Below the pieces are notes generated by a model. It was given only the letters and a program-made list of their open reading frames with translations, ran no database searches and was not told the DNA's origin. DNA of 46,883 bases, from NCBI GenBank assembly GCA_019428905.1, contig JAHYJN010000019.1, positions 1 to 46,883 of the forward strand, written 5' to 3'. Position numbers and translations under genes: made by a program. How positions within the stretch are numbered: position 1 is the first letter of the stretch; the number at the start of each line of letters is the position of its first letter. Shown here piece after piece: positions 29,917 to 40,570 of the stretch. Source of the stretch: Candidatus Brevefilum sp. GTDB taxonomy: Bacteria; Chloroflexota; Anaerolineae; Anaerolineales; Anaerolineaceae.

Positions 29917-30588
29917 TCATTGATTCACCGGCGCTATAATCTCCGGCCGGTCATTCTCCGGTGAGTTAACCGCTCGCGAAACGGGGAAACACTTCATCTC
30001 ATCCGCCGGGTAAGGCACCAGCAGGTCTAAAAGGGCGCTTTGTTCTGCATCTGGCTTAAGCCAAGCCCAGCGCGCCGCCTCGCCTAACATTACCGGCATG
30101 CGGTTGTGGTAATCACGCACCAACTCATTGGGCTGGCAGGTCAGGATCGTGCAGGTGTGCAGTTCACCGCCCTCCGGAAATTCCTTATGTTCATACAACC
30201 CAGCAAAGGTAAAGGGGCGGTCATCTTTCAGTTTGAACAGGTAGGGCGTTTTTGCGGCACCTTTTTCTGCTGCGTGCCATTCAAAAAATCCATCGGCAAT
30301 GATCAGGCAGCGTCGGTATTTAAAGGCTCCCCTGAAGGAGGGCTTTTCGTGCGCGGTTTCAGATCGGGCATTGATCAGGCGGTTACCAATGCTGATATCA
30401 TCCGCCCAAAATGGCACCAGTCCCCAGCGGTAAAGCTCCACAGCGCGTGTTTGATGATCCTTGACAATCGGCACCGGCTGTGAAGGAGCAACATTATAGC
30501 GCGGCTCCACGACATGCACAAACGGACCTAAATCCAGCAGGGTTTGGATCTCACCAGGATCAAGCGTGATGGTAAAACGTCCGCACAT
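29917..30588 (-). CDS. SRAP / HMCES-family abasic-site DNA-protein crosslinker (YedK-like)
   Basis: A 223-residue SRAP protein. Starting at 30588 (after GAGGAGG) gives MCGRF, so that Cys2 becomes the N-terminal residue that links covalently to abasic sites in single-stranded DNA. The other active-site parts are present: RYNVAPSQ (Asn), FFEWH (Glu) and YHNRMPVML (His). An upstream in-frame start would bury Cys2 and is rejected. SRAP proteins protect abasic sites at stalled forks. It is divergent from a radical SAM repair-type gene whose promoter carries a LexA-like box, although that box is more than 360 bp away. Confidence 0.93.
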   Translation of the reverse strand: MCGRFTITLDPGEIQTLLDLGPFVHVVEPRYNVAPSQPVPIVKDHQTRAVELYRWGLVPFWADDISIGNRLINARSETAHEKPSFRGAFKYRRCLIIADGFFEWHAAEKGAAKTPYLFKLKDDRPFTFAGLYEHKEFPEGGELHTCTILTCQPNELVRDYHNRMPVMLGEAARWAWLKPDAEQSALLDLLVPYPADEMKCFPVSRAVNSPENDRPEIIAPVNQ

Positions 30589-30639
30589 CGCTCCTCCTCT
30601 CATGCCAGATAGGGTGTTAATGAGTTAATTACATGAGTG

Positions 30640-30941: not shown

Positions 30942-30970
30942 TTGCAAAGATAAAACATTTGTTCTATAAT
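30942..30970 (+). promoter_or_regulatory. leaderless promoter of the radical SAM gene with LexA-like box
   Basis: TTGCAA (30942-30947), a 17-bp spacer and TATAAT (30965-30970). The ATG at 30977 is at the predicted transcription start. The 16-mer at 30951-30966, read on the minus strand, is TAGAACAAATGTTTTA. It matches 14 of 16 bases of the box in the polymerase-operon promoter (36432-36447), and both resemble GAAC-N4-GTTC LexA sites. Confidence 0.7.
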
Positions 30971-30976
30971 ATCAGA

Positions 30977-32140
30977 ATGGATGTGCTAGATAAGATCAAA
31001 CTTACCTCCCTCAATATGCCCTTTGAGGCAGCCGAAGATATCCAGCGCTCTCAATCCCTACCGCCCTGTCCTGACGATCTATCAAGCTTAAAGGACCGGT
31101 TTCCTATCACCCAGGCGCACTTGCCCAACGGTCGTTCCATCCCCCTGCTCAAAACCATGCAGACTTCTGTATGTGAAAACGACTGTAATTACTGCTGTTT
31201 TCGGTCAGGTCGGGACACACCCCGTGCCAGCCTGACCCCCGATGAACTGGCATCCGCTGTGGTCAAACTCACCCGCGCGGGGATTGCCAAAGGGCTGTTT
31301 CTCAGCTCTGGGTTGGCAGGCGGTGGCGTGGGCACCCAAGACAAGCTGATCGCTACTGCTGAGATTCTGCGCCGTAAATATCAGTACCAAGAATATATCC
31401 ATCTTAAGATCATGCCCGGTGCAGAGAAGGACCAGATCTTCAGGGCTATGCAGCTGGCAGACCGGGTCTCAATCAACCTGGAGGGCGCTAACGAGCGCAG
31501 CCTCAGCAAATTAGCCCCCCACAAAACCTTTTTTGAGGAACTCCTGAAACCCCTGCAAATCATCGAGGATATCCGCAAGTCTGTCTCTCCCCACCTGGCC
31601 TGGAAGCGCACCTGGCCTTCGAGCTGCACGCAATTTGTGGTCGGCGCTGTCGGTGAAAGCGACCTTGACCTGCTGCAAACCACTCACCAGCTGCAAACCC
31701 ATTTTAAAATCACCCGGGCTTATTATTCAAACTTCTCACCGGTGACCGAGACACCCTTTGAACACCTCCCACCATCCAACCCCTGGCGGCAGCATCGGCT
31801 CTACCAGGCCTTCTTCTTGCTGCGCGACTATCAATTCGACTTTGAGGAGCTGCCATTTTCTACCTCGGGCTACCTCAATCTGGAAAAAGACCCGAAACTG
31901 CTGTGGGCAGAGACATATCTGCGTCATACCCCGATTGAAATCAACACCGCTGACTACGCGCAACTTTTAAGAATCCCCGGGATTGGTGCCATCAGTGCCA
32001 AAAAGATCATTCAAATCCGGGACTATGGTAAGATTCGAGATATCCACACCCTGTCCAAATTGGGTATCTCAACTTCCAGGGCAGCACCATTCATCTTATT
32101 AGATGGCTGGCGCCCGGCTTACCAACCAGGTTTGTTTTAA
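30977..32140 (+). CDS. radical SAM protein, DNA modification/repair type, with HhH tail
   Basis: A 387-residue radical SAM protein. The cluster cysteines C66, C70 and C73 form CENDCNYC (CX3CX2C). The SAM barrel follows (GLFLSSGLAGGG, HLKIMPGAE, RVSINLEGA), and the C-terminus holds a helix-hairpin-helix (LRIPGIGAISAKKIIQIR, about residues 345-365) that would bind DNA. This matches the putative DNA modification/repair radical SAM family often paired with a uracil-DNA-glycosylase-like protein; that partner is absent here. The start at 30977 is chosen because it coincides with the predicted transcription start; upstream in-frame codons would lie in the promoter. It overlaps the DUF6504 gene by one base. 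Confidence 0.85.
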   Translation: MDVLDKIKLTSLNMPFEAAEDIQRSQSLPPCPDDLSSLKDRFPITQAHLPNGRSIPLLKTMQTSVCENDCNYCCFRSGRDTPRASLTPDELASAVVKLTRAGIAKGLFLSSGLAGGGVGTQDKLIATAEILRRKYQYQEYIHLKIMPGAEKDQIFRAMQLADRVSINLEGANERSLSKLAPHKTFFEELLKPLQIIEDIRKSVSPHLAWKRTWPSSCTQFVVGAVGESDLDLLQTTHQLQTHFKITRAYYSNFSPVTETPFEHLPPSNPWRQHRLYQAFFLLRDYQFDFEELPFSTSGYLNLEKDPKLLWAETYLRHTPIEINTADYAQLLRIPGIGAISAKKIIQIRDYGKIRDIHTLSKLGISTSRAAPFILLDGWRPAYQPGLF

Positions 32141-32538
32141 TGGCGCAGGACAAACACACCATCAGACATTTTATCTCTGAACCAATCACGATCCACTTTG
32201 AGAAACCACCCTCACACACCAAGAAACCCCACTGTCCGGATCGCTTTAATTGGCGTGGTGAGGATTGGATCATCACAGCCTGCCTAGCTGAATGGGTCGA
32301 CTACACCCGTCGAGGTCGGATGGCAAAGAATATGCAACCCCAACACGCACAGGCCGCCAGCCAACGCGGCTCGTGGGGCGTGGGTCGCTTCTATTTCGAT
32401 GTCCAGTCCAAACAGGAGGGTTCCCGTAACCATGCAAGCCGTCTATTCCGCCTGTATTATGACCGAGCGCCAACAGATGCATCTGACCGCACGGGTCATT
32501 GGATCTTGTTGGCAGAGTTGACACAAGTTGAGGATTGA
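32140..32538 (+). CDS. DUF6504-like small protein
   Basis: A 132-residue protein with the DUF6504 pattern: FISEPITIHF near the start, then FNWRGEDWIITACLAEW, and a late YYDRAP..GHWILLAEL. Related proteins are often encoded next to Y-family polymerase or other repair genes. No catalytic residues can be named. It starts in the TAATG overlap with the radical SAM gene and so is translated with it; it probably belongs to the same LexA-box unit. Confidence 0.7.
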   Translation: MAQDKHTIRHFISEPITIHFEKPPSHTKKPHCPDRFNWRGEDWIITACLAEWVDYTRRGRMAKNMQPQHAQAASQRGSWGVGRFYFDVQSKQEGSRNHASRLFRLYYDRAPTDASDRTGHWILLAELTQVED

Positions 32539-36425: not shown

Positions 36426-36454
36426 TTGAAATAGAACAAATATTCTATTATAAT
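36426..36454 (+). promoter_or_regulatory. leaderless promoter of the polymerase operon with LexA-like box in the spacer
   Basis: TTGAAA (36426-36431), a 17-bp spacer and TATAAT (36449-36454). The ATG at 36461 lies at the predicted start of transcription. The spacer is filled by TAGAACAAATATTCTA (36432-36447), an imperfect palindrome with a GAAC-N4-ATTC core, one base from the GAAC-N4-GTTC LexA pattern and 14/16 identical to the box before the radical SAM gene. Confidence 0.78.
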
Positions 36455-36460
36455 TAGAAC

Positions 36461-36865
36461 ATGTCATGGATCAAGCAAGTCTGGCGCTGGCTCAACCCCA
36501 CCAACCCAACCCGCTTACTGCTGCTGGAATTGGACCCGCTCCACGCGGTTTACCTGGCGCAAGTTGCCGCGGCCACCCACACCTCGCGCCAGCAGGCCGC
36601 GCAGGACCTGCTCAAAAACGCCCTGGTGGATCGCCAAATCGCCGAGGCGCACCTGGCACACTGGCGCGCGCTGACCCCCCGCCAGCAGCAGGTGGCCGCC
36701 CTGGCCTGCCTGAACTTCACCAACCGCCAGATCGCCGCCCGCCTGGGCATCTCACCCCAAACGGTCAAGGCCCACCTGCGTAACCTGCTGCAGCGTTTTG
36801 AGCTGCACGGCAAAGCCGAACTGCGCCAGGCCCTGGAAGATTGGGATTTCAGCGAGTGGGTCTGA
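36461..36865 (+). CDS. small regulator with LuxR-type helix-turn-helix
   Basis: A 134-residue protein. The C-terminal part is a LuxR/FixJ-type HTH: LTPRQQQVAAL, then NRQIAARLGISPQTVKAHLRN. The N-terminal 65 residues are helical (LDPLHAVYLAQVAAATHTSRQQAAQDLL, read in two pieces) and are not a receiver domain. It is the first gene of the polymerase operon and is translated from a leaderless mRNA. From here to about 40117 the sequence is visibly richer in G+C than its neighbours. A DNA-binding role is likely; whether it controls its own operon is not known. Confidence 0.8.
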   Translation: MSWIKQVWRWLNPTNPTRLLLLELDPLHAVYLAQVAAATHTSRQQAAQDLLKNALVDRQIAEAHLAHWRALTPRQQQVAALACLNFTNRQIAARLGISPQTVKAHLRNLLQRFELHGKAELRQALEDWDFSEWV

Positions 36866-36954
36866 GGTTAACCCACCCGGTTAACCCACATTTCACCCCC
36901 TTTTAACCCCGATTCAGCATAGACAGGGGTGGATGCCCGGCATAAGATAGGAAC

Positions 36955-37506
36955 ATGGATCAACGCATTATTACCTTTCCGATGCCCACAGCGGGCAAAA
37001 TATCCCTGGTGGTCGCCCCCCGGGCGGTGCTGGACCGGTTGACGTCCATGCTGGCCGCACTGGCGCTGCGCGGGCGCGTGCTGGTCGTTGACGGCGGCAA
37101 TTGCTTTGATGGCTATGCCCTGGCGCGTGCCCTGCGGGGGCAGACCCACGAAGTTGAGGCCGCGCTGAGGCAGGTCTGGCTCTCGCGCGCCTTCACCTGC
37201 TACCAGATGGTCGCCATGCTGGCCGAACTGCCCGTGGACGGGACGCCCGTGATCGTCCTGGATATGCTGTCCACCTTCCTGGACGAGAACGTCAACTTCA
37301 GCAAACGCCTGCGCTTGTTGGAGAGCAGCTTGAACCTGCTCAGGCGCATCAGCCAGGGCGCCCCTGTCGCCATCTGGGCCCGGGCCCGCACGAGCTCCGT
37401 CACCGCTGAAGACCAGCAGCTGCTGGCGCCCCTGCTGGAAACCGCGCGCGATGTCTGGGAGCTGCAAGCACCGGAAACGCCGGTGCACCAGCTGCCGTTA
37501 TTCTAA
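36955..37506 (+). CDS. inactivated RecA/RadA-like ATPase homologue (ImuA-like role possible)
   Basis: A 183-residue protein with the outline of a RecA/Rad51 core: a strand VLVVDGGNCFD like the RadA segment after Walker A, VWLSRAFTCYQM like the RadA ARAFN-HQ segment, and a Walker-B strand PVIVLDMLSTF. The Walker A motif is missing: where G-x4-GK-T should be there is VVAPRAVLDRL. It therefore probably does not hydrolyse ATP and may act as a RecA-interacting accessory factor. AGGAAC precedes the ATG; the gene starts 89 bp after the HTH gene and is followed 39 bp later by the small helical protein. Similar broken RecA-like proteins accompany mutagenic polymerases (ImuA). Confidence 0.65.
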   Translation: MDQRIITFPMPTAGKISLVVAPRAVLDRLTSMLAALALRGRVLVVDGGNCFDGYALARALRGQTHEVEAALRQVWLSRAFTCYQMVAMLAELPVDGTPVIVLDMLSTFLDENVNFSKRLRLLESSLNLLRRISQGAPVAIWARARTSSVTAEDQQLLAPLLETARDVWELQAPETPVHQLPLF

Positions 37507-37545
37507 CCGACCATACCCCAATCCACTTAGATCAAGGAGAACCCC

Positions 37546-37809
37546 ATGGGACGCACACTCCCCTCAGCCACCCAACTCATGCACCAGGAAGAAGCCGCAT
37601 TGGCCCGCTTCCGCCGCGCCCTGCGCCGGGGTGACCAGTTGATCTTTGATGACCTGTTCACCGCTGCGCAAAAACACATCTCAGCCGCCGCCTACGCCGC
37701 CCACGCCCTGCCCTTTGAGACCTTCCTGATGGCCATGCTCCTCGAGGAGCACAAACAGGTTATGCGCCTGCAGAAAATCGTTGAGGCGCTGGAGGAGATG
37801 CATGCCTGA
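37546..37809 (+). CDS. small helical protein of the polymerase operon
   Basis: An 87-residue, mostly helical protein with no recognised domain. It is Ala-rich and charged (EEAALARFRRALRRGDQL, AAQKHISAAAYAAHAL, EEHKQVMRLQKIVEALEEM). AAGGAGA lies well placed before the ATG. Its last codons overlap the polymerase start by 8 bp, and its own GGAGGAG codons act as the polymerase ribosome site. It is probably a subunit or adaptor for the polymerase, judging only from position. Confidence 0.75.
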   Translation: MGRTLPSATQLMHQEEAALARFRRALRRGDQLIFDDLFTAAQKHISAAAYAAHALPFETFLMAMLLEEHKQVMRLQKIVEALEEMHA

Positions 37810-40117
37810 GTTCAGCGGCTGGCTGCTCGACCTGTTTGAGGATCCGCGCGAAGGCCTGGTGTTGTATTTCATCGACGAAGCAGGGCCGCGCTGGCGGCTG
37901 AGACGCCCCTTCCCGGTCACCTTTTACGCCCTGGGGGAGGATGCCCAACTGCGTACCCTGTGGCAGCATCTCAGCGACCGGCCGGGCGAGATCACCCTCA
38001 GCCGGGCACGCCGCATGGACGTCTTCAAACGGGATGCAGTCACTGCCCTGGGAATCACGGTGGAAAACCCCTACCAGGCCAGGCAGGTCTTTCAGCAAAC
38101 CGCGGCCCGTTTCCCAAACCTAGAATATGCCGATGCCGATCTGCACATTTCCCTGCGCTTTGCAGCCGAGACGGGCGCCTTCCCCCTCGCCTACTGCCGC
38201 GTCGCAGCAGACCAGGACGGCCAACTGCAAGAGATCGAGGTGCTGGAGGGCGCCTGGACGCTGAAGACCCTCCCCATCCCGCTGCGGACCATGAGCCTGT
38301 CACCGGATGTCCCCCCCCACCATGCCCGCCCGCACCGCTTGATGGTCGAGATCGAAGGCGAAACCTACCAATTTGACCTGCACACCTGGCGAGCACTGCT
38401 GGTCAACCTGCGGGCGCTGATCCAGCGCTACGACCCCGACCTGCTGCTGACAGACTGGGGCGATACCTGGCTCCTGCCCCGCCTGCTCCAGCAGTCTGAG
38501 GCGCACCATATCCCCCTGGGATTGAACCGTGAGCCCGGCCGGGGGGTCAGCTGGCGCGAAGAACGCACCTACTTCTCCTACGGGCGGATCGTCTACCGCG
38601 GCCAGCAGATTCACCTGTTTGGCCGCTGCCATATCGACCGTCAGAACGCCGTGCTGTGGAACGACTACGCCCTCGAGGGCACGATTGAGGTCAGCCGGGT
38701 GACCGCCCTGCCCTTGCAGACCGCCGCCCGCGTTTCACCGGGCACCGGCATCTCATCCATCGAGATGCTGACCGCCCTGCGGGAGGGCATCCTGGTGCCC
38801 TGGCAAAAACAGCAGGCGGAAATGCTCAAACCGGCCGCAGACCTGTTCGCAGCCGACCAGGGCGGTCTGGTCTACCAGCCCAAGATCGGCGTTCACAAGA
38901 ATGTGGCAGAGATCGATTTCGTCTCCCTCTACCCAGCCATCATGGTGCATTTCAACATCTCACCCGAGACCATCCTGCCAGACCCCAACGCCGACAACCT
39001 GGTGCCCGCCCTCGGCTTGGCAATCGACACCAGCCAGGACGGCCTGATCCCCAAAGCGTTGCGCCCGCTGCTGGAGAAGCGGATTGAGATGAAAAAGCAC
39101 CTCGCCAGCACCCCAGCCTGGGACCCTTACCGCAAAAACTTCAAAAGCCGTTCGTCAGCGCTCAAATGGCTGCTGGTAACCTGTTTCGGCTACCTGGGCT
39201 ATAAGAATGCCCGTTTTGGGCGGATTGAGGCGCACCAGGCGGTGACAGCCTACGGGCGCGAGGCCCTCTTGAGCGCTAAAGAGGCCGCAGAGGACTTTGG
39301 ATTTGAGGTCATCCAACTCTATGTGGACGGGTTATGGGTGCGCCACCCCGACAAAACGCAGCCCGCCGATATCGAACCCCTGCTGCTAGAAATCCAGGCG
39401 CGCACCGGGTTGCCGATCTCACTCGATGGGATTTATCGCTGGGTGGTGTTCGTCGGGTCGCGCCAGAACAAAAAACGCCCGGTCGCCAACCGCTATTTTG
39501 GCGTCTTCCAGGATGGCTCAATCAAGGTGCGCGGCATCGACGCCCGCCGGCGCGACAGTACGCCCTTCGTGGCACAGGCCCAAATGCACTTGCTCGAACT
39601 GCTCGCCCGCGCAGAAGAGCCCGAGGCCGCGCTGCCAGAAGCGATTGCCTTCCTGCAAAACCGCCTCAGGGCCCTGCGCTCAGGGTCGGTCAAGCTGCCG
39701 GACCTTCTCGTCCGGCAGCAGCTGGGACGTAAAATGGAAGCCTACCGCACGCCCTCCCCTGCCGCGCGGGCTGTCCTGCAGCTCAACACGGTCGGCAAGG
39801 AGCTGCACCCTGGTCAGCGGGTCCCTTTTCTCTACACCCTCGGCAAGCCGGGCGTGTTTGCCTGGGACCTGCCCCACAAGCCCAACCCGCGCGCGGTGGA
39901 CGTAGCGCGCTACCAGCGCTTGCTCCTGCGGGCAGCGGGTATCGTCCTTGAATCCTGGGGGTTGGATGAGCGTAAACTGACCGAAAGGGTGCTCTCAGAC
40001 GCCAGCCAACTGTGTTTACCGGTTCCGCCCAAGAAGCACCCGGTCCAGCACCGCCGCAATATTCCAGGCGTCATCGACCCCGCGATGGATCGTGCCCTCA
40101 AAGGTCAGTCCCAGTAA
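37802..40117 (+). CDS. family-B DNA polymerase with altered motif C and degenerate exonuclease (PolB2-like)
   Basis: A 771-residue family-B polymerase. Motif A is DFVSLYP (from D372); motif B is K455-WLLVTCFGYLGY; motif C is LYVDGLWV, where the usual DTD has become YVD, so only one Asp (D509) remains. The N-terminal exonuclease domain appears dead: the Exo I block is VEIEG near 182-186, and the Exo II block GDTWLLP (220-226) lacks the Asn and Asp. Loss of proofreading plus an altered active site suggests a translesion or error-prone enzyme, or one that has lost activity. The ATG is chosen for its GGAGGAG and the 8-bp overlap with the small helical gene. Its last 102 bp overlap the convergent exonuclease gene. 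PolB2-type enzymes in archaea and some bacteria are, as I remember, encoded with similar partners. Confidence 0.85.
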   Translation: MPEFSGWLLDLFEDPREGLVLYFIDEAGPRWRLRRPFPVTFYALGEDAQLRTLWQHLSDRPGEITLSRARRMDVFKRDAVTALGITVENPYQARQVFQQTAARFPNLEYADADLHISLRFAAETGAFPLAYCRVAADQDGQLQEIEVLEGAWTLKTLPIPLRTMSLSPDVPPHHARPHRLMVEIEGETYQFDLHTWRALLVNLRALIQRYDPDLLLTDWGDTWLLPRLLQQSEAHHIPLGLNREPGRGVSWREERTYFSYGRIVYRGQQIHLFGRCHIDRQNAVLWNDYALEGTIEVSRVTALPLQTAARVSPGTGISSIEMLTALREGILVPWQKQQAEMLKPAADLFAADQGGLVYQPKIGVHKNVAEIDFVSLYPAIMVHFNISPETILPDPNADNLVPALGLAIDTSQDGLIPKALRPLLEKRIEMKKHLASTPAWDPYRKNFKSRSSALKWLLVTCFGYLGYKNARFGRIEAHQAVTAYGREALLSAKEAAEDFGFEVIQLYVDGLWVRHPDKTQPADIEPLLLEIQARTGLPISLDGIYRWVVFVGSRQNKKRPVANRYFGVFQDGSIKVRGIDARRRDSTPFVAQAQMHLLELLARAEEPEAALPEAIAFLQNRLRALRSGSVKLPDLLVRQQLGRKMEAYRTPSPAARAVLQLNTVGKELHPGQRVPFLYTLGKPGVFAWDLPHKPNPRAVDVARYQRLLLRAAGIVLESWGLDERKLTERVLSDASQLCLPVPPKKHPVQHRRNIPGVIDPAMDRALKGQSQ

Positions 40118-40570
40118 GCTTGTCCCCCGCTGCAGTCCGACCTCTTTCTTCAACCCCAGCTGTAACGCCAGCAAGTTCTTGACGTTGATGTGCGAACGTC
40201 CAAAGGGATAGGCGATGCCCCACGCTTCGCATTGCTTCATGAATTGCAGGCGGTCATAATCGCCGTAACTGGCCCAGGTGCGCTGACAGGAATGGTACGC
40301 ATCCCTTAACAGGTCACAGGCTTCAGCAAAGTGTATGCCGTCTGCCAGCATCTCAGGGGTGATGGTCGTTAATTGGACGCAGAATTCGCTTAAAGTTGAG
40401 CGCTGGGGTTGGACCATGATGGCACGCGCCGGTTCACGTTCGCCGCTGGCCACATCCAAAACGCACAGGCCAATTTCAATGATCTCGCTGACCTGACCCT
40501 CAGGCGGGTCACCCTCCCAGCAGGTGGCTTCCACGTCAATCACGAGGATTTTATCAAGTCTACGCGCCAT
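40016..40570 (-). CDS. DnaQ/ERI1-like 3'-5' exonuclease
   Basis: A 184-residue DEDD exonuclease. Exo I is VIDVEATCW (D12, E14), the middle motif includes SYGDYDRLQF, and Exo III is HRGVDDAWN near the C-terminus (H162, D167), so the active site is complete. It resembles the ERI1/KapD group acting on RNA or DNA ends. The Exo III motif lies inside the overlap with the 3' end of the polymerase gene on the other strand. The start overlaps the end of the MmcQ/YjbR gene by 11 bp, so the two are coupled. It might supply the proofreading that the polymerase lacks, but they are on opposite strands. Confidence 0.88.
   Translation of the reverse strand: MARRLDKILVIDVEATCWEGDPPEGQVSEIIEIGLCVLDVASGEREPARAIMVQPQRSTLSEFCVQLTTITPEMLADGIHFAEACDLLRDAYHSCQRTWASYGDYDRLQFMKQCEAWGIAYPFGRSHINVKNLLALQLGLKKEVGLQRGTSLLGLTFEGTIHRGVDDAWNIAAVLDRVLLGRNR

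Follow-up and report, generated by a model that had tools for sequence, protein, structure and literature searches.

A PolB2 mutasome operon of Candidatus Brevefilum with a predicted LexA-type operator and a LuxR-type regulator gene

Which system is encoded by four consecutive genes of Candidatus Brevefilum sp. (Chloroflexota; Anaerolineaceae), specifying a LuxR/GerE-type helix-turn-helix (HTH) protein, a RecA/RadA-like protein, a protein of 87 residues and a family-B DNA polymerase, and what controls it? The genes lie on contig JAHYJN010000019.1 (assembly GCA_019428905.1), of which positions 1 to 46,883 were analyzed (hereafter, the window); the source genome is 92% complete. An earlier interpretation made from the letters of the window (hereafter, the sequence-only reading) saw here a bacterial counterpart of the archaeal PolB2 system, under damage control and possibly acquired by transfer. 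Our analysis makes it highly probable that the locus is an SOS-controlled operon for a bacterial PolB2 mutasome. Judged by its sequence, the core trio is a member of the already described kind of mutasome that consists of PolB2, iRadA and PPB2 and includes bacterial representatives (Timinskas, Timinskas and Venclovas 2025, PMC11791011), since gene order, motifs, the iRadA fold and the polymerase tree match the published system. The trio being known, what looks new is the LexA-type box on the operon and a possible relay through the HTH protein.

The conserved trio and its polymerase

A family sample of 101 genomes contained 72 with PolB2 matches, and a phylum sample of 400 genomes contained 24. 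Flanking genes were compared for a subset of the matching loci, 57 and the window, making 58; they come from relatives including a Brevefilum sp. metagenome-assembled genome and other metagenome-assembled genomes of Anaerolineaceae and Chloroflexota (11 loci are named). The four same-direction genes reported earlier were confirmed by their coordinates and Pfam matches, and the trio iRadA-PPB2-PolB2 was present in the published bacterial order in 57 of the 58 loci, the exception (L110) being cut by a contig end; these 57 include an iRadA-PPB2 fusion (L109) and a locus with iRadA and PPB2 approximately 1.7 kb apart (L082). Conservation of this extent shows that the arrangement is not due to chance. 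A homolog of the HTH gene precedes iRadA on the same strand in 33 of the 58 loci. One genome (G219) harbors two complete HTH-iRadA-PPB2-PolB2 operons (L098 and L099).

The polymerase, whose more likely start is ATG at 37802, overlapping the PPB2 gene by 8 nt, rather than TTG at 37781, matches the Pfam family DNA_pol_B (E = 3.2e-34). Among NCBIfam models it scores 370.5 bits with NF004416 (E = 1.6e-110; below the model cut-off of 516) and 329 bits with NF004418, the best model for haloarchaeal PolB2s, vs. at most 143 bits with DNA polymerase I models and at most 73 bits with Pol II models. The change of motif C from DTD to YVD, pointed out by the sequence-only reading, proved to be general: the first Asp is lost in all 58 aligned Chloroflexota polymerases (YVD in 50, FVD in four, YID in two, IVD and ITD in one each). 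The Asp, Phe and Ser of motif A and the Lys of motif B are conserved in all 58, and the YP of motif A in 57; in the D(K/R) motif characteristic of PolB2, the Asp of HID is invariant and the adjacent Arg is present in 36 sequences, the window having HIDR. In agreement with the claimed loss of the exonuclease active site, ExoI D-x-E is absent from the window polymerase and ExoIII was not recognized by eye in the alignment columns; an Asp of the ExoII region is retained (GDTWLLP).

A tree was built from 22 polymerase-domain rows: 12 Chloroflexota and seven haloarchaeal PolB2s, two archaeal fragments that we take to be of the PolB3 type, and E. coli Pol II; PolB1 was unrepresented. The 19 PolB2 rows were split from the other three with support of 100/100, and the bacterial and the archaeal PolB2s each formed one side of a branch; the tree was flagged for long branches and odd composition. 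The window polymerase thus groups with archaeal PolB2, apart from the PolB3-type fragments and Pol II. A bacterial group has been placed inside archaeal B2 (Kazlauskas 2020, PMC7544198), and an old transfer from archaea to bacteria was concluded in PolB2 papers; our trees, being unrooted, are compatible with such a transfer and do not contradict it.

The iRadA protein has no Pfam match when searched singly. A profile of 41 members matches RadA/Rad51 chains in the PDB (best E = 1.7e-7), and ten of these members individually match Pfam Rad51 (E up to 1; best 5.3e-5). Foldseek, run with the predicted structure (predicted local distance difference test score, pLDDT, 92.7), retrieved RadA, Rad51 and DMC1 (best E = 2.8e-8). 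The Walker A pattern GxxxxGK[ST] is found in none of 57 iRadAs, so that the lack of Walker A noticed in the window protein extends to its relatives. The C-terminal QLPLF conforms to QLxLF, the canonical beta-clamp-binding motif (PMC11791011); the pattern Q-x-(x)-[LIM]-[FLW] is present among the 15 C-terminal residues in 34 of 57 iRadAs and among the 30 C-terminal residues in three of 58 PolB2s. PPB2 begins with MGRT in 52 of 57 loci, the window included, and its profile matches five haloarchaeal PPB2s (probability 99.4, E = 1.9e-21). None of the three outcomes that would have refuted the sequence-only reading was observed: the polymerase groups with PolB2, no active Walker A was seen, and the genes are not scattered in relatives.

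The LexA-type box and the HTH gene

The predicted promoter of the first gene reads TTGAAA-TA-GAACAAATATTC-TATTATAAT, with a putative LexA-type operator between the -35 and -10 hexamers, and this block is conserved among five aligned same-genus sequences (window included). The -10 hexamer is separated from the HTH start codon by 6 nt in the window and, by eye, by about 6-9 nt in many loci; given this short distance, the mRNA of the first operon gene is probably leaderless.

Boxes were counted in 57 loci, as L110 has no upstream DNA. In the region from -220 to +60 of the first operon gene, the box GAAC-N4-GTTC is exact in 29 loci and has at most one mismatch in 48, with 0.12 and 4.57, respectively, expected from first-order Markov shuffles. 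A few of the 48 boxes are doubtful, namely L090 (-155), L107 (-183) and L095 (+3), the latter two depending on assigned start codons; L070, tallied without a box, carries an exact one if the conserved core of the protein is used to position the region. With a position weight matrix (PWM) built from 42 sites outside the genus, the GAACAAATATTC site scores highest in the 46.9-kb window (29.8 bits; the runner-up, at 30947, has 29.2 bits).

Searches of the source genome for single families yielded one LexA-domain match, one RecA, one Y-family (IMS) polymerase gene and one family-B polymerase gene, that of the window. The lexA promoter, on another contig, has the exact box GAACGGATGTTC at the corresponding place, and the recA promoter the one-mismatch box GAACATATGTGC; no LexA-type box lies directly upstream of the Y-family polymerase gene. 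In the family, 62 LexA-domain matches were found in 56 of 61 genomes. Among the best 30 of these 62 loci, the upstream box is exact in 28 and has one mismatch in another; the last one, L178, a frame of 107 residues that is perhaps not LexA, has none; the remaining 85 kb of the 30 loci contain no exact box. Because lexA promoters of the family and the operon promoters share the same box, LexA is likely to be the repressor of the operon promoter. The suggested damage control thereby gains evidence from the promoter.

The HTH protein has the C-terminal signature WDFSxW; its predicted structure (pLDDT 86.5, with low values for the first 20 residues) resembles StyR/FixJ weakly in Foldseek (best E = 2.4e-4). 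Strong HTH matches (E up to 6.3e-14) number 35 in the family sample and come from 35 of its 101 genomes. Of these, 27 share a contig with PolB2 and are close to it, two are at contig edges and six are elsewhere. Each of the six remote copies is preceded by a box at 26-28 bp from its start (two exact and four with one mismatch). Two genomes with remote copies (L120 and L122) have a gene for an MntP-type manganese efflux pump close downstream of them, and in L064, from the same genus as these two, the HTH-iRadA gap seems by eye to contain an MntP-like tail.

The position of the box depends on the presence of the HTH gene. Among 57 loci with iRadA, the HTH gene is adjacent in 33, remote in five and lacking in 19 (for 18 of the 19 this means no HTH among the matches listed, some genomes being incomplete; L108, from another family, was outside the search). 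With at most one mismatch, a box lies near the HTH start in 28 of the 33 HTH-adjacent loci; before iRadA it is found in six of the 33 vs. 17 of the 19 HTH-less loci (Fisher's test, 8e-7), or, after dereplication, in two of 21 vs. 14 of 16 (3.6e-6), with one of four for remote HTH. Three of five genomes with a remote HTH gene and PolB2 lack a box at iRadA, and so does the iRadA promoter region of the window, which has a weak promoter-like site. A terminator-like site is present in the HTH-iRadA gap of eight of 33 loci (0.5 in shuffles), and none of these eight has a box before iRadA. Taken together, the box distribution, the gap terminators and the boxed remote HTH copies speak for a relay rather than for simple co-transcription, but they do not do so for the window.

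A candidate operator for the HTH protein is a series of C-rich direct repeats before iRadA. The ACCC repeats align across four same-genus loci with the HTH gene and are absent from the one without it. In its own genome this geometry occurs without mismatch in the window only, and the five two-mismatch matches are at control level. In 25 dereplicated HTH loci, 34 of 100 C-block spacings are 10-13 bp long vs. 15.3 in shuffles (maximum 28 in 500 runs); without the loci with terminators the numbers are 25 of 76 vs. 11.7 (maximum 24), and in 16 HTH-less loci two of 15 vs. 1.3. C-rich blocks precede iRadA also where HTH is remote. The mere count of C-blocks was set aside as weak evidence for an operator, owing to G+C content and terminator stems; the spacing test and the same-genus conservation were retained. 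From these we infer that the HTH protein may bind the C-rich repeats before iRadA.

Alternative explanations and known systems

Several other accounts of the locus deserve consideration. That the polymerase is an ordinary family-B enzyme of the replicative or Pol II type, beside unrelated genes, would fit its best PDB sequence matches, which are archaeal family-B enzymes (e.g. 5mdn and Deep Vent), with no PolB2 structure among the matches listed; given the tree split, the conserved trio and the NCBIfam scores, the chance of this is negligible. The loss of the first motif C Asp in all Chloroflexota sequences agrees with the idea, first proposed for PolB2, of a catalytically dead polymerase acting as a scaffold or regulator. 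However, the motif A Asp and the motif B Lys are retained throughout, and the archaeal homolog Dpo2, with motif C IID, is nevertheless an active extender (PMC8764526, PMC11791011), which makes a dead enzyme very unlikely. The operon is indeed richer in G+C than the rest of the window (63.3% vs. 51.4%), as noted earlier, and two of eight same-genus genomes have no PolB2 match, both of which would suit a recently acquired mobile island; but the operon exceeds its flanks in G+C in 52 of 57 relatives, and RelA/SpoT-like and exonuclease neighbors are common to all five same-genus loci compared. The argument for transfer from G+C therefore fails, the high G+C is no evidence for recent transfer, and we find a recent island hardly credible. 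In an empty-site test, the neighboring exonuclease was found in neither of two same-genus genomes without PolB2.

A more serious competitor concerns the control of the operon. It dispenses with the relay: all four genes would be expressed as one transcript from a single promoter, controlled by LexA and located ahead of the HTH gene, and the HTH protein would serve autoregulation or another SOS gene. The HTH gene is on the same strand in all 33 adjacent loci, the HTH-iRadA gaps are mostly short, that of the window has no terminator-like site, so that simple co-transcription is possible there, and four same-genus loci have a box before iRadA too (two exact and two with one mismatch). These observations are opposed by the terminator-like sites in other gaps, by the boxed HTH copies elsewhere in the genome (six of 35 strong family matches) and by the C-rich blocks before iRadA where HTH is remote; we consider this simpler scheme plausible, if somewhat doubtful. 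For the relay, in which LexA controls the LuxR-type activator and the activator, not LexA, would switch on the mutasome, with direct control by LexA in lineages without the activator, we see about an even chance.

Besides the uninterrupted gap of the window, further observations weigh against SOS control, the relay or the PolB2 assignment. The window box has one mismatch to GAAC-N4-GTTC; a genome-wide search for exact boxes gave 32 sites vs. 36 for the reversed pattern, and in the absence of enrichment the box alone cannot define a regulon. As placed, five of the 33 HTH-adjacent loci have no box near the HTH start, two of the five genomes with a remote HTH gene retain a box with one mismatch before iRadA, and two of the 19 HTH-less loci have none there. 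Raw C-block counts per 150 bp (4.67 with HTH vs. 1.74 without) are confounded by G+C (0.53 vs. 0.40), and strand asymmetry of the C-blocks in HTH-adjacent loci is not significant (p = 0.08 for all and 0.14 for dereplicated loci). The iRadA profile matches its haloarchaeal counterpart moderately (probability 97.3). In a larger tree of 37 rows the PolB2 of a Leptospira phage, flagged for its long branch, groups with the archaeal PolB2s (96/75), and owing to this the bacterial rows do not form a single group. All loci counted belong to relatives and are thus not independent of one another, the statistics being without species-tree correction, and the open-access literature searched yielded no data on expression, binding or mutagenesis for PolB2 of Chloroflexota.

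The bacterial PolB2 (G2) mutasomes resemble the window most: they share the gene order, the MGRT arm, the lost first motif C Asp, the decayed exonuclease and a clamp motif that is commoner in iRadA than in PolB2 (PMC11791011). Thus the proposed counterpart of PolB2 is supported, being in fact a homologous member of PolB2 and of a kind already described (PMC4104785, PMC11791011). In PMC11791011 lexA genes are enriched near mutasomes, whereas lexA of the source genome lies on a different contig, the connection here being the LexA-type box. The window also has a LuxR-type HTH gene, and the main text of that paper does not contain LuxR, GerE, helix-turn-helix, SOS box or Chloroflex. Neither a LexA-type box on such an operon nor an HTH relay was found described in the open-access literature searched, including the main texts of PMC11791011 and PMC12926913. 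An inactivated-polymerase operon, including a bacterial case with lexA, was described previously (Makarova 2014, PMC4104785). That case, LFML04_0990-0993 of Leptospirillum ferriphilum, is like the window a bacterial trio with an SOS association; unlike the window, it has lexA inside the predicted operon, and no HTH gene is named for it.

The archaeal PolB2/Dpo2 operons (of Sulfolobus, and the haloarchaeal L125, L126, L129, L131 and L132) likewise have a homologous polymerase with iRadA-like and PPB2 genes upstream. Unlike the window, the stretches of L125, L126, L129 and L131 contain Cdc6/Orc-type genes, and motif C is IID or IVD in the two sequences compared, vs. YVD. Two haloarchaeal plasmid PolB2 genes (L128 and L130) are beside orc-type genes with no adjoining iRadA- or PPB2-like gene annotated, and nest among trio-type PolB2s in the 37-row tree. 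The Leptospira phage record KF114878 (L127) encodes a PolB2-like polymerase with motif C ITD; the gene upstream of it resembles iRadA by eye, and the annotated small gene between them has 43 codons only. ImuA-ImuB-DnaE2 is similar in its RecA-family partner (dead in two ImuA groups) and in damage-linked error-prone synthesis, and different in its family-C polymerase and inactive Y-family-like subunit; a relative of this system was rejected, as the operon polymerase belongs to family B and the only IMS-domain match of the genome is on another contig. E. coli Pol V (UmuD'2C-RecA) also combines a recombinase-family partner with a small subunit that inserts an arm into the polymerase (PMC11791011), unlike the window with a Y-family polymerase and an active RecA.

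Features of the window and a model of its action

Other features of the window are listed in Table 1. A gene for an SOS response associated peptidase (SRAP) lies about 6 kb upstream of the operon; SRAP genes are enriched near polB2 (PMC11791011). The second-best PWM site of the window is a LexA-type box, AAACATTTGTTC (30953-30964), before a radical SAM gene, which is followed by a DUF6504 gene. The convergent exonuclease gene is present in all five same-genus loci compared.

Table 1. Coordinates of the operon, its predicted control sites and neighboring genes in the window
Feature	Position	Strand	Evidence or remark
SRAP (SOS response associated peptidase)	29917-30603	-	Pfam E 7.5e-71
Radical SAM gene like rSAM_link_UDG	30977-32140	+	TIGR03916 E 8.5e-83, below cut-off
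DUF6504 gene	32140-32538	+	
Sigma-70-type promoter TTGAAA-N17-TATAAT before HTH gene	36426-36454	+	11 of 12 consensus positions
Predicted LexA-type operator	36434-36445	+	PWM; own lexA and recA boxes
LuxR/GerE-type HTH regulator, 134 residues	36461-36865	+	Pfam GerE E 4.4e-14
Candidate operator of the HTH protein: C-rich direct repeats with ACCC in steps of 13/11/11 bp	36866-36910	+	
Weak promoter-like site TAGACA-N17-TAAGAT before iRadA	36920-36948	+	
iRadA, RadA/Rad51-fold protein without Walker A, 183 residues	36955-37506	+	Profile, model, Foldseek
QLPLF at iRadA C-terminus	37489-37503	+	Matches beta-clamp-binding motif
PPB2, 87-residue partner protein with N-terminal MGRT arm	37546-37809	+	Motif, profile match
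PolB2 family-B DNA polymerase, 771 residues; motif C YVD, HIDR motif, decayed exonuclease	37802-40117	+	Pfam, NCBIfam, tree
3'-5' exonuclease gene (RNase_T, KapD-like)	40016-40570	-	Convergent with polB2, overlapping its 3' end by 102 bp

A PolB2-iRadA-PPB2(3) complex was modeled for 40 complexes (PMC11791011). The archaeal enzyme Dpo2 is active and elongates primers whose ends are mismatched or lie opposite lesions (PMC8764526), and it is responsible for targeted mutagenesis (PMC7390963). By analogy, we infer a translesion or extender activity for the window polymerase. As in the modeled relatives, PolB2 would associate with the inactivated RadA-like protein and with PPB2 in trimeric form, be tethered to the sliding clamp, here via the C-terminal QLPLF of iRadA, and extend mismatched or lesion-blocked primer ends without proofreading, so that damage would be survived at the cost of mutations. 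LexA would repress the promoter ahead of the HTH gene until its RecA-driven cleavage allows the HTH protein to be made; in lineages having it, this protein would then turn on the iRadA promoter via the C-rich repeats. Mutagenesis might thus be a delayed second tier, postponed until damage persists. Where relatives lack the HTH gene, iRadA appears to be under direct control of LexA.

In the PolB2 papers, nearby lexA genes are the ground for ascribing a damage role to the bacterial branch; the conserved box on the operon makes this role directly testable, and suggests that many Anaerolineae may switch on an archaeal-type error-prone polymerase after damage. E. coli Pol V is induced late. If the relay is true, its dedicated regulator would time mutagenesis in a new way, comparable in purpose to this late induction.

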